Below, in pieces: positions 26,410-30,164 of a stretch of DNA of 64,000 nucleotides. The stretch is from Synechococcus sp. Nb3U1 (GTDB lineage: Bacteria > Cyanobacteriota > Cyanobacteriia > Thermostichales > Thermostichaceae). Each line of letters begins with the position of its first letter. The first letter of the stretch is position 1. A program made the position numbers and the translations under genes. The notes under the pieces are model-generated. The model ran no database searches. It worked only from the letters and a program-made list of their open reading frames with translations, and was not told the origin of the DNA. Location: contig NZ_JAKFYQ010000001.1 of the NCBI RefSeq assembly GCF_021533835.1, positions 315,001 through 379,000 on the forward strand. Direction: 5' to 3'.

Positions 26410-26760
26410 CTACCACTTCGGCTTAGGAATTTTGATTTGAGGAGTCAAGGGAATCACCGCTGATGCGATTGTACTAATTGTAGCAATTACCGCAGTAGCA
26501 ATTACAGCTTCACCACCCGCTACAGCTTCCAGCTCTTCATCAGAGAGTTCACCCGCATCTTGACGCTGGGAGAAATCAGCTTGGCGCTTTTGCACTTCTT
26601 CCCAAAGCTCATCAGGAGTCACTTCATAGCCCTTGCTAATGGCTAGCTGGGCGGCAGCACCCCGATCATCCTCAGCTTCCAGAGCCTTGGCTAACTCTTC
26701 TAGCAGAGAAGCATCTTCACCAACCTTATCCAGGAACTCAGCAGCAGCTTGAGTGCTCAT
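26410..26760 (-). CDS. Nif11-leader RiPP precursor, copy A (hydrophobic core)
   Basis: A 116-residue precursor-like peptide. Residues 1-82 or so are a Nif11-type leader (MSTQAAAEFLDKVGED, then AISKGYEVTPDELW) ending in ELSDEELEAVAGG, a double-glycine cleavage motif. The remaining 33 residues form a Cys-free, Ala/Ile/Val/Thr/Ser-rich hydrophobic core that ends in TPQIKIPKPKW. The family predicts cleavage after GG by a peptidase-containing transporter and enzymatic modification of the core; neither enzyme is in the window. The frame is open 24 nt further upstream, but MSTQ aligns with the other copies. The leader and 64 bp upstream are identical to copy B, so this is a recent tandem duplicate (offset 586 bp). 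Confidence 0.88.
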   Translation of the reverse strand: MSTQAAAEFLDKVGEDASLLEELAKALEAEDDRGAAAQLAISKGYEVTPDELWEEVQKRQADFSQRQDAGELSDEELEAVAGGEAVIATAVIATISTIASAVIPLTPQIKIPKPKW

Positions 26761-26912
26761 ATTGAAGATCCAATAAACGAACAAAGATAATCTACCATCA
26801 AACAGTCGGAATCGATTGTTAAGAATTGTCTGAGATCTAAGATATAAGATAATAGAGAGGGCAAACTCCTACGTCAATCGAGGTGGATGTAGACTACCAC
26901 AATAAAGAAACA

Positions 26913-26939
26913 GGCAGGCCAGAGAATCTCTAGCCTACC
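26913..26939 (-). terminator. Terminator-like hairpin downstream of Nif11 copy B
   Basis: A 12-position stem with 10 pairs and a 3-nt loop. On the minus strand it is followed by a T-rich stretch (TGTTTCTTTATT). It lies between copy B and copy A, so each copy may have its own transcript. Confidence 0.5.
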
Positions 26940-26995
26940 TCTTAAGTATGTATCCATAGAAAATAGAGCAAGTCAGTCTCTTGAAGAAAAACAGA

Positions 26996-27346
26996 CTACC
27001 ACTTCGGCTTAGGAATTTTGATTTGAGGAGTCAAGGGAATCGCCGCTGAGGCAATAGTACTAATGGCACTGATAATTGCGGTAGCAATTACAGCTTCACC
27101 ACCCGCTACAGCTTCCAGCTCTTCATCAGAGAGTTCACCCGCATCTTGACGCTGGGAGAAATCAGCTTGGCGCTTTTGCACTTCTTCCCAAAGCTCATCA
27201 GGAGTCACTTCATAGCCCTTGCTAATGGCTAGCTGGGCGGCAGCACCCCGATCATCCTCAGCTTCCAGAGCCTTGGCTAACTCTTCTAGCAGAGAAGCAT
27301 CTTCACCAACCTTATCCAGGAACTCAGCAGCAGCTTGAGTGCTCAT
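26996..27346 (-). CDS. Nif11-leader RiPP precursor, copy B (hydrophobic core)
   Basis: A 116-residue precursor-like peptide with the same leader as copy A, residue for residue, up to the double-glycine motif VAGG. Its core differs from A at a few positions, all exchanges among small or hydrophobic residues (A has AVIAT and SAV where B has AIISA and SAA). It ends in the same tail, TPQIKIPKPKW. There is no Cys, so lanthionine chemistry is unlikely. The frame stays open upstream for 82 more codons into copy C. MSTQ at 27346 is chosen because copies A and D start there. A hairpin that could terminate its transcript lies at 26913-26939. Confidence 0.88.
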   Translation of the reverse strand: MSTQAAAEFLDKVGEDASLLEELAKALEAEDDRGAAAQLAISKGYEVTPDELWEEVQKRQADFSQRQDAGELSDEELEAVAGGEAVIATAIISAISTIASAAIPLTPQIKIPKPKW

Positions 27347-27454
27347 ATTGAAGATCCAATAAACGAACAAAGATAATCTACCATCAAACAGTCGGAATCG
27401 ATTGTTAAGATTTGCTTGAAGTCTGAGAAAACGGACAGCTTGTGAGAGGCTGTG

Positions 27455-27804
27455 CGCTCTATCAGCCATTCCTACACAAAGAAGAAAATTATCACTTGGG
27501 CCGGGGTAAGGCCCAAGTAACCCTAAAGGAGATGCCAGCGATGGGGTAATTGCAACCTCTCTAGCAACAGACTTTAGCTCTTCATCAGACAACTCACTTT
27601 GATCTGACTCTCAGCTTGGCGCCTTTGCACCTCCGCCCGCAATTCATCCGGGATCACTTCATAGCCTTTGCGAATGGCTAGCTGAGTCACAGCTGCACGA
27701 TCATCCTCAGCTTCCATCGTTCGTGCCAGTTTATTCATCAAGTCCTCATCCTGGGCCACTTTTTTTAGGAAACCACCAACTACTTCTAAACTTATAATTT
27801 TCAT
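27455..27804 (-). pseudogene. Frameshifted Nif11-leader peptide gene, copy C
   Basis: From ATG 27804 the frame encodes a Nif11 leader (MKIISLEVVGGFLKKVAQDED, then IRKGYEVIPDEL) but hits a stop after 76 residues (27574). The expected ELSDEEL motif follows in another frame. Removing one AG from a GAGAG tract (plus-strand CTCTC, 27608-27612) restores QAESDQSELSDEELKSVA, so a 2-bp duplication is the likely lesion. The double-glycine has decayed (SVAREV instead of SVAGG) and the KIPKPKW tail is absent. After correction the frame runs without a stop into copy B, so the original 3' end may have been lost when B was inserted. The low-coordinate limit given here is approximate. Confidence 0.7.
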
Positions 27805-27889
27805 TCACTCCCTAAATAGATATGCAGTTCTCTTGTAGTTCTCTGCCGACAACCCACAACAGTAAATCGCAAAACTGAAAATGCCTATA

Positions 27890-27924
27890 GGGTAACTCAG
27901 AGAAGATATTTCTCCAAGTCACCC
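27890..27924 (-). terminator. Long hairpin downstream of Nif11 copy D
   Basis: GGGTGACTTGGAGAA pairs with CTTCTCTGAGTTACCC on the minus strand: about 15 pairs including a few G-T. It lies 60 bp past the copy D stop. A weak T-rich stretch follows, so it may be a terminator or an RNA-stabilising hairpin. Confidence 0.5.
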
Positions 27925-27956
27925 CATCAACTTATCTCACTCAGGTCTCATTCTAA

Positions 27957-27986
27957 ATTAGAGAATTTCTAATTAGAGAATTTCTA
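27957..27986. repeat. Perfect 15-bp tandem repeat at the copy D stop
   Basis: ATTAGAGAATTTCTA occurs twice in a row (27957-27971 and 27972-27986); the second unit contains the stop codon of copy D. Confidence 0.85.
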
Positions 27987-28310
27987 CCACTTGGGCTTAG
28001 GAATTTTGGGCAAGGGGAAAGGAAGTCCACCACCACCGCCAGGGAATCCTGGAAATCCTGGGATCGGGAAGAGGAATCCACCAGCCACAGACTCCAATTC
28101 TTCATCACTCAATTCGGTACCTGCTTCTGATTGGCGCTTTTGGACTTCCGCCCACAATTCATCGGGGGTTACGTCATAGCCTTTGCTAATAGCTAGCTGA
28201 GCCACAGCCGCGCGATCGTCCTCAGCTTCCATTGCCTGTGCTAACTCACCCATCAAAGCCTCATCCTCTGCAACCTTCTTGAGAAAGTCGTTAACAGCTT
28301 CTGCACTCAT
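27984..28310 (-). CDS. Nif11-leader RiPP precursor, copy D (Pro/Gly/Phe core)
   Basis: A 108-residue precursor-like peptide. The leader (residues 1-78 or so) is clearly Nif11 type and ends in ELSDEELESVAGG. The core is quite different from copies A and B: FLFPIPGFPGFP, a five-glycine run, then LPFPLP, built from Pro, Gly, Phe, Leu and Ile. The last seven residues are again KIPKPKW. Sharing of the tail between unrelated cores argues that it is a functional element (recognition site, export tag or active part) rather than leftover homology. It is the first peptide of the minus-strand series and is divergent from the metallo-hydrolase gene across 384 bp. Confidence 0.88.
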   Translation of the reverse strand: MSAEAVNDFLKKVAEDEALMGELAQAMEAEDDRAAVAQLAISKGYDVTPDELWAEVQKRQSEAGTELSDEELESVAGGFLFPIPGFPGFPGGGGGLPFPLPKIPKPKW

Positions 28311-28694: not shown

Positions 28695-30164
28695 ATGAGT
28701 GACATCCTTACTTTTGCTCGGGGATCCCAGTTCTTGGCTGTGAATGGCAACGACCAGATTTGCTATACTGTGCAGCCATTGATACAGGCACTGTTGCAGG
28801 ATTTTGTAGATACCCATGACTTGGGGCTTTCCATTCAGCGGGGGTTGCAGGTGCAGCCGGAGGTGGCGGAGGCTTTGTTCGATATTGATATAAGCTCGCC
28901 AGAGCCATTCTCTCTCAAGCCGCAGTTTCTGTTCCCGGAGACGAACCCGCTCCTCGGCCTTTTCTTTAGCAACACGCGGATCCCGTCCTTTTTGCGCCGG
29001 GAGGGGCGAGAGGTGATTCAGGATGAGGCGATCTTGCCTGCTATTCATCAGTTGCTGGCGCAGTGTGGTCGGGGTACCCAAACCCGTCAACAGATTCTCG
29101 AGCAGGTGCCAGAAGCGGTTCATCCCCTGCTGGAAAAGCTGATGGCCTCGCAAGTCTTGGTGGGGCAACCACAGGCACCGATTGCTGCCACCCTGGGATC
29201 CGCTGGGGTTTATCGCCTGCAACATGCAGCGCTCCTTTACCGCTCTGGCAGCACGGGTATTTTGGTGGATCCGCAGTTTCACTCCAACTACGGGCGGGAA
29301 GGTCTAAAGGGGGATATCACCCGCGCCATGGTGGAAGGCCAAGTGGATGCCATTCTTATTTCCCACAGCCATTACGACCACTGGCATTACCCCACCCTGA
29401 TGATGTTTCCTGCGGATATTCCGGTGATTGTGCCTAAGGTGCCTCGGCCCAGCTTAATGTGCGAGGACATGGAAGGACGCTTGCGCAGCCTAGGGTTTGA
29501 GCGGGTGATCGCGGTGGATTGGTACGCCGATCCCATTTGCATTGGGGATATTGAGGTGCATGTGCTGCCGTTCTATGGGGAGCAGCCTTTGGTGCCTCGC
29601 TTCGACAGCCCACAACACCCGGATCTGCGCAATTGGGGCAATACTTACCTATTGCGGGGTGAGGAGTTTACCTCCTGGTTTTTGATCGATGCGGGGTTTG
29701 AGCCGGCGGCTTCGATGGTGGAGGTGGCGGAATATGTACGGGATCACTTTGCCCCCTTGGATCACCTGATCAGCAATTTCCAAGCCCTCTCCTACAATTC
29801 CATTGGCACCGACCTCTCCAGTTGGGGGATCGATATTGTTGCCAACCTGCTCAGTAACCCGCGCATTTTTTCCGTCACCAACGAGCAGGAGGGCGGCTAC
29901 ATTGCCACTTTAGGGCCAGCGGGAGTGGCGGAGCTGTCTAGCATTACCCAAGCGAAAGCCTGTTTGCCCTATGCCGATAGCTGGTCGGATTTGGGTACCC
30001 CAGGGATCCATGATCAAGAATTGATTGAGGCCACCCTCACCGAACTGAAGAAACGAGGCGCGGCAACGGAGGTGATCCCCTGGCACATTGGGGATGGCTA
30101 TGTGCGTCCGCAGCCGGGATCCCCCCATCAACTGCTTCGGAATGCCATTCGTCCGGGCCGGTAA
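28695..30164 (+). CDS. Metallo-beta-lactamase-fold hydrolase with N-terminal winged-helix-like domain
   Basis: A 489-residue protein. The MBL domain starts near residue 175 and carries the zinc motif H224-S-H226-Y-D228-H229. Further candidate ligands are Asp in WFLIDAGFEP and His in PWHIGDG. Residues 1-170 or so are not part of a standard MBL protein. Part of them (PSFLRREGREVI, a helical stretch, then QILEQVPEAVHPLLEKLMASQVLV) has the strand-helix-helix pattern of PqqD-like winged-helix RiPP recognition elements. With its position, divergent from the Nif11 peptides, that suggests a maturation enzyme, but this is inference. A stand-alone metabolic hydrolase is the alternative. Confidence 0.75.
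   Translation: MSDILTFARGSQFLAVNGNDQICYTVQPLIQALLQDFVDTHDLGLSIQRGLQVQPEVAEALFDIDISSPEPFSLKPQFLFPETNPLLGLFFSNTRIPSFLRREGREVIQDEAILPAIHQLLAQCGRGTQTRQQILEQVPEAVHPLLEKLMASQVLVGQPQAPIAATLGSAGVYRLQHAALLYRSGSTGILVDPQFHSNYGREGLKGDITRAMVEGQVDAILISHSHYDHWHYPTLMMFPADIPVIVPKVPRPSLMCEDMEGRLRSLGFERVIAVDWYADPICIGDIEVHVLPFYGEQPLVPRFDSPQHPDLRNWGNTYLLRGEEFTSWFLIDAGFEPAASMVEVAEYVRDHFAPLDHLISNFQALSYNSIGTDLSSWGIDIVANLLSNPRIFSVTNEQEGGYIATLGPAGVAELSSITQAKACLPYADSWSDLGTPGIHDQELIEATLTELKKRGAATEVIPWHIGDGYVRPQPGSPHQLLRNAIRPGR

Follow-up and report, generated by a model that had tools for sequence, protein, structure and literature searches.

A terminal Lys-Trp on cyanobacterial Nif11-leader peptides co-occurs with a CmlA-like MBL-fold protein

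Why should peptides with unlike cores end in the same seven residues? The question is raised by a locus of Synechococcus sp. Nb3U1, within the 64,000-nt stretch of contig NZ_JAKFYQ010000001.1 that we analysed (the window, positions 315,001 to 379,000 of the forward strand), where four Nif11-leader precursor genes, A to D, lie in tandem on the minus strand. Precursor A (116 aa, 26410..26760) consists of an 83-aa Nif11 leader ending in ELEAVAGG and the core EAVIATAVIATISTIASAVIPLTPQIKIPKPKW, precursor B (116 aa, 26996..27346) carries the core EAVIATAIISAISTIASAAIPLTPQIKIPKPKW, and precursor D (108 aa, 27984..28310) has the Pro/Gly/Phe-rich core FLFPIPGFPGFPGGGGGLPFPLPKIPKPKW. These three genes are intact, and C is broken. 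The sequence-only reading of this DNA had described A, B and D as intact precursors with a Nif11 leader and a double-Gly site, with unlike, Cys-free cores in front of a constant KIPKPKW, and we could confirm each of these points. All three have a Nif11 domain above the Pfam cut-off, a VAGG site and KIPKPKW followed by a stop codon, Cys is absent from their cores, and the core of D contains neither Ser nor Thr. The tails are exact pattern matches on the minus strand at 26413..26433 in A (G000:C1:341413-341433 in the numbering of the window genome, G000), 26999..27019 in B and 27987..28007 in D. Precursor A matched Pfam Nif11 at 1.8e-9 and TIGR03798 at 4e-10, and D matched Nif11 at 3e-11; the TIGR03798 scores of A, B and D (39.8, 39.8 and 45.3 bits, curated cut-off 32.3) place them among the N11P precursors. 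In the alignment of the leader subfamily the Gly-Gly cleavage motif follows ELSDEELEAV, and G77 and G78 are invariant. Against the CTB family bacteriocin model NF038167, the three precursors scored 20-21 bits, below the curated cut-off of 32. A scan of the window with a RiPP-enzyme marker set found none besides an MBL-fold protein of 489 aa (28695..30164, plus strand), which probably belongs to the CmlA-like diiron-oxygenase family and is encoded divergently from D.

In DNA, A and B do not differ at all in leader plus 5' flank (about 330 nt) or in the 47 nt that include the tail; the 13 nucleotide differences between them all fall into a 39-nt block of the core (26456..26494 in A, minus strand). 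Judged by this comparison, A and B (window 26410-27446) are a recent duplicate or conversion pair and a natural case of core-only diversification. The pseudogene C (about 27482-27804, minus strand) has an intact Nif11 leader start and frameshifts on both sides of the cleavage region; its last codons read TWALPRPK and are followed by TGA, where TGG would encode Trp.

A search of the Nb3U1 genome for KIPKPKW with up to two mismatches returned the three known tails and four others. One of the four is a leader-damaged Nif11 peptide ending in KPPKPKW at a second locus (contig C2), where it lies beside an intact peptide ending in APKVKW. KIPKPKW followed by a stop was matched only 4 times in 84,980 genomes, with no match in cyanobacterial records, a number close to that expected by chance according to our estimate, and the exact heptapeptide was confined to this genus among the genomes searched. 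A profile search recovered relatives in distant cyanobacteria, with several kinds of cores and with ends such as PKPKW, PPIKW, SKIKW, TTKVKW and NAKW. Lys-Trp (KW) formed the exact terminus of 51 out of 52 distinct intact precursors of the leader subfamily from 17 cyanobacterial genomes in six families, a tally that rests on a profile (A1) whose input sequences were KW-tailed and which may be slightly biased towards peptides of this kind, and on an automatic list from which B is missing, though B also ends in KW. I, P, A or V predominate at position -3 of the KW tails, and 31 of the tails have Lys at -4; a single Cys occurs in four of the 51 KW cores. The sole intact member with another end in the KW genomes is encoded in Nb3U1 itself (L016:9550-9954; G000:C1, near 1589633), and its core end reads ...GSKAWWGDDYGC, with ...WWGDDYGC. 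By this tally the conserved element is the terminal Lys-Trp, and KIPKPKW is the genus version of a stricter rule. The heptapeptide that the sequence-only reading had proposed to follow through other genomes together with its neighbours was thus found, among the genomes searched, in this genus only; it was Lys-Trp that recurred among the relatives, and with it a partner that the sequence-only reading had not named, the MBL-fold protein.

In a draw of 390 genomes, 12 have the MBL protein (presence threshold E<1e-100), and exactly these 12 have the KW-tailed subfamily; the MBL homologues from other families are 53-60% identical. G376, the thirteenth genome to match the leader subfamily strongly, had neither MBL nor KW. 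In a follow-up of one further family (218 genomes), each of the five new genomes whose MBL gene is intact has KW tails, and none of five more MBL-negative genomes does, some of which have near-identical leaders. In G587 a stop codon interrupts the MBL homologue, and the precursor lacks KW and ends in IKFSF. Overall, KW was found in 17/17 genomes with the MBL protein versus 0/6 leader-subfamily genomes without it, or in 51/52 versus 0/10 peptides, counts that come from related genomes and are not independent draws. In the LanM tree, G457, which has both KW and MBL, is nested with full support within a clade of genomes that have neither (G376, G570, G486 and G492), indicating that the tail and the enzyme changed together more than once. 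A second test, in family f13, found MBL and KW in the same three genomes; it adds little, the genomes being mostly ones already covered. We therefore rejected the explanation that the tail is merely inherited and has no role: KW is absent behind near-identical leaders in genomes that lack the MBL gene, and there was more than one change of state. The sequence-only reading had reckoned with the case of a general C-terminus of the subfamily with no conserved role; general it is, but the absence of a role is contradicted by the co-occurrence with the MBL family. Its suggestion of a conserved role for the tail gained support from the same co-occurrence with one enzyme family, although the unit to which it applies is Lys-Trp and not KIPKPKW.

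Comparison with the sister species G005 shows the same two elements being retained. Its syntenic locus (L049, G005:C16:43000-62999) has B-like and D-like genes and the MBL gene, keeps the KIPKPKW tail and also carries a relic with LPRPKW. Omega was 0.04 for B versus its G005 counterpart B' and 0.057 for the MBL gene, and the last 13 codons of both the B and the D pair differ only synonymously, while the core of D is rewritten between the species (FLFPIPGFPGFPGG... versus FLGPTLTVPVTIPGFPGG...). On these substitution patterns, the tail and the MBL protein are kept under purifying selection. A chance origin of the tail was ruled out by the synonymous-only changes between species together with KW in 51/52 peptides. 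LanM, C39 and the 2OG enzymes described below were looked for in the 120-contig draft of G005 and not found.

In several other genera, the genes follow the operon order LanM, precursor(s), MBL protein, 2OG-Fe(II) oxygenase, a second, larger 2OG enzyme and a 600-aa protein, and an MDR dehydrogenase, another MBL protein and a JmjC_2 protein are often encoded there too. Most members come with LanM and C39/HlyD genes. In Nb3U1 all parts of this module are present and dispersed: 2OGb-unk7-MDR-MBL2-JmjC form one gene run (about C1:962,900-970,500), 2OGa is on C4, and HlyD-PCAT(C39)-ABC-LanM is on C3. The 600-aa protein has no Pfam family and no PDB relative, and a profile of 2OGb gave no match in the PDB. 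We regard it as highly probable that the tail is functionally part of the MBL/2OG module, and as likely that this MBL-centred oxygenase module, within a cyanobacterial RiPP pathway, modifies the tail or docks on it. The MBL protein itself would, on balance, be the component that acts on or binds the tail, but the tail tracks the whole module, and its reader may be the 2OG enzymes or the 600-aa protein rather than the MBL protein.

Lys-Trp could also be a docking handle (a follower), with the module modifying Pro, Val, Ile or dehydrated residues of the core and leaving the tail unchanged, perhaps to be trimmed later. A constant tail with variable cores is what would be expected of a recognition element, the module contains several oxygenases (two 2OG, one JmjC and one MBL), and the Pro-rich core of D would suit prolyl hydroxylation, with D-type Pro/Gly-rich cores recurring in G300 and G323. 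However, two residues are little for several enzymes to hold on to, given a leader of 78-83 residues, and KW is at the extreme C-terminus in all 51 cases, so that we consider this arrangement rather unlikely. Improbable, in our view, is a membrane-active peptide (a hydrophobic helix with an interfacial Lys/Trp anchor) that has the tail as its functional end, the module serving this product but leaving the tail untouched. Many KW cores do have a hydrophobic Ala/Ile/Val-rich stretch followed by a cationic end, and a passage of PMC11356792 cites enhanced haemolysis from a C-terminal Trp on hydrophobic peptides. Yet the same end is found on D-type Pro/Gly-rich cores, for which a helix is unlikely, the cores of the KW-less relatives are as hydrophobic as the KW ones, and an anchor would need neither the exact terminal K-W order nor co-variation with one enzyme.

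Pfam and NCBIfam call the MBL protein only Lactamase_B or metal-dependent hydrolase, and the MBL superfamily consists mostly of hydrolases, which would suit an enzyme that trims or deamidates the C-terminus with KW as its cleavage signal. The comparison with solved structures argues against such a hydrolase, to which we give little probability: a profile of 15 family members had its best match in CmlA (4jo0, 5kik; 8e-15), followed by another diiron monooxygenase (8a90, 9e-11), whereas the best hydrolase, NAPE-PLD, reached only 0.0035. The match to CmlA spans residues 175-298 only (about 124 residues), and within it five iron ligands align. H224, H226, D228, H229 and E296 are invariant in the 15 sequences, the last being the CmlA-type Glu, and their counterparts are, as we take it, the CmlA iron ligands H305, H307, D309, H310 and E377; at the aligned E377 position, the printed alignment shows GD in place of GE for entry 5kil. 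D332 is also invariant but lies beyond the CmlA-aligned part. No invariant His follows it in the alignment of the 15 sequences, so CmlA H432, presumably a further iron ligand, is without an invariant His counterpart in this family. AlphaFold, run on the MBL protein alone and without an alignment, gave a pLDDT of 37, too low for use. Judging from its relatives and the aligned ligands, the MBL protein is probably an oxygenase. CmlA and FrsH beta-hydroxylate amino acids while these are bound to an NRPS (PMC7794379, PMC7785958). The window protein shares with them the MBL-fold, HxHxDH and the Glu of the iron site, but their substrates are amino acids tethered to NRPS carrier domains, and the similarity extends over the 124 or so residues given above. 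None of the papers searched linked RiPPs or precursor peptides to the MBL fold, and no RiPP member came up in them. To our knowledge, action of CmlA on peptides is not known, and a CmlA-type MBL-fold diiron enzyme acting on the tail would be the first to act on a ribosomal peptide. A second CmlA-like MBL protein, about 33% identical, is encoded in another genome (L208:9552-11129, G107:C52) beside a bacteriocin-type ABC transporter and another MBL protein, with no Gly-Gly precursor found nearby; similar matches of this second type (L164-L170) occur in several genomes of family f32.

LanM is present in nearly all genomes with the KW pathway, that of Nb3U1 included. In all KW-associated LanMs examined, the cyclase zinc ligands are gone, with WA/T.G or FSQG and.WG replacing WC.G and C[CH]G and the first zinc Cys changed to A, T or S. 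The dehydratase residues DxH, K, DxHxxN, D and RxT are kept in every KW-associated LanM aligned, and the only substitution of a dehydratase residue in the alignment is in an outgroup. Within the same search, zinc ligands persist in the LanMs of most cyanobacteria outside this set. Among the hallmarks of class II lanthipeptides, the dehydratase residues are therefore found here, while the three zinc ligands and, in A, B and D, the core Cys are missing, and the loss of the ligands agrees with cores that are mostly Cys-free. From a cyclase without zinc ligands, dehydration without lanthionine rings is to be expected, and D, having no Ser, Thr or Cys, cannot be a substrate or product of LanM. The earlier judgement that lanthipeptide chemistry is unlikely thus stands as regards the rings, but it had not reckoned with a LanM in nearly every one of these genomes. 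The same LanM without zinc ligands, and related leaders, also occur in the KW-less relatives G376, G486, G492 and G570; loss of the ligands therefore follows the leader subfamily, and the tail follows the MBL module. For the same reason, and despite the LanM and C39/HlyD genes found with most members, it is very improbable that the tail is a tag for export or leader processing, read by LanM or by the C39 transporter (the sequence-only reading had suggested an export tag): none of these four relatives has KW, not even G570, where HlyD-C39-ABC genes of the same kind adjoin the zinc-less LanM locus, and the sister species keeps KW where no LanM or C39 was found. At L205 (G486:C1), a LanM gene that keeps its zinc ligands (WCHG) adjoins one that lacks them (WANG/LCWG), and the pair lies beside Nif11 precursors.

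LanM enzymes bind the leaders of their precursors, and C39 proteins cut at Gly-Gly during export. A to D would accordingly be precursors of a cyanobacterial RiPP pathway in which the leader is read by a LanM-type dehydratase with a zinc-less cyclase, Ser and Thr, where present, are dehydrated by LanM and perhaps then reduced by the MDR enzyme, and the C39 exporter cleaves at Gly-Gly during export. The oxygenase module, made up of the CmlA-like MBL protein, two 2OG-Fe(II) oxygenases and the 600-aa protein, would use the C-terminal Lys-Trp, and its most likely chemistry would be an oxidation (by analogy with CmlA, a beta-hydroxylation) of the terminal Trp or the adjoining Lys. Hydroxylation of Trp (or Lys) as the actual reaction is a tentative proposal drawn from that analogy. 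A modified cationic-aromatic end could be placed on any upstream core, and the cores would be free to diversify. The peptides may even form a new RiPP class, linear and for the most part Cys-free, with Ser/Thr dehydrated by a cyclase-dead LanM, the products reduced by MDR, and a universal Lys-Trp tail oxidised by a CmlA-type MBL-fold diiron enzyme, though we hold this to be somewhat doubtful.

Several parts of this picture have precedents. N11P precursors (TIGR03798) and their LanM and C39 partners were described previously (Haft et al. 2010, PMC2887384; PMC3140520), and the leader, the ELEAVAGG motif, the paralogous arrays and both partners are common to the family of A to D. In contrast, N11P cores are low-complexity, Cys/Gly/Ser-rich sequences whose similarity stops at Gly-Gly (PMC2887384), whereas the cores described here are nearly free of Cys and share a conserved Lys-Trp end. 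Cyanotins (lanthipeptide precursor family II 26; Walker et al. 2020, PMC7268733) likewise combine a cyanobacterial Nif11 leader, diverse cores and a LanM neighbourhood, and passages of that paper describe some precursors without Cys. These traits are seen in the relatives, while the LanM of the window genome is on another contig; neither a tail rule nor an oxygenase partner is given in the parts of PMC7268733 available to us, supplementary logos aside. Closest is Pseudanabaena galeata CCNP1313 (2024, PMC11356792), for which the consulted part of the report describes a zinc-less LanM (A/M/W) and a Cys-free Nif11 precursor with Lys at -1 and a C-terminal Trp. Its LanM motif is that of G116/G157/G198. 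The report deals with one strain, and that part of its text does not note the Lys-Trp conservation, the MBL/2OG module or the co-occurrence. The prochlorosin system resembles the present one in its Nif11 leaders, in the many precursors per LanM and in precursors far from LanM; in the same search, CCG-type LanMs, to which we take ProcM to belong, keep the WCxG and CCG zinc motifs, which the KW-associated LanMs lack. No link between KW and an oxygenase was found in the text of the papers searched. N11Ps without Cys, and a LanM without zinc ligands, had thus already been described; what the co-occurrence suggests is a pathway of peptide modification, as yet undescribed, that recognises or changes the tail.

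The conserved tail becomes a testable pairing of one enzyme family with one two-residue sequence, with natural controls that have nearly the same leaders and lack both. If the MBL protein does act on the tail, a two-residue C-terminal rule would be useful in peptide engineering. The pathway also helps to explain the coexistence of Cys-free Nif11 precursors with LanM genes, an open point for cyanotins. Another kind of C-terminus was seen in a different Nif11 array (L069, G089:C17), whose peptides end in RGW, RQW or GSGW, have W-x-N-x-R-like motifs and are possibly radical-SAM (triceptide-type) substrates.
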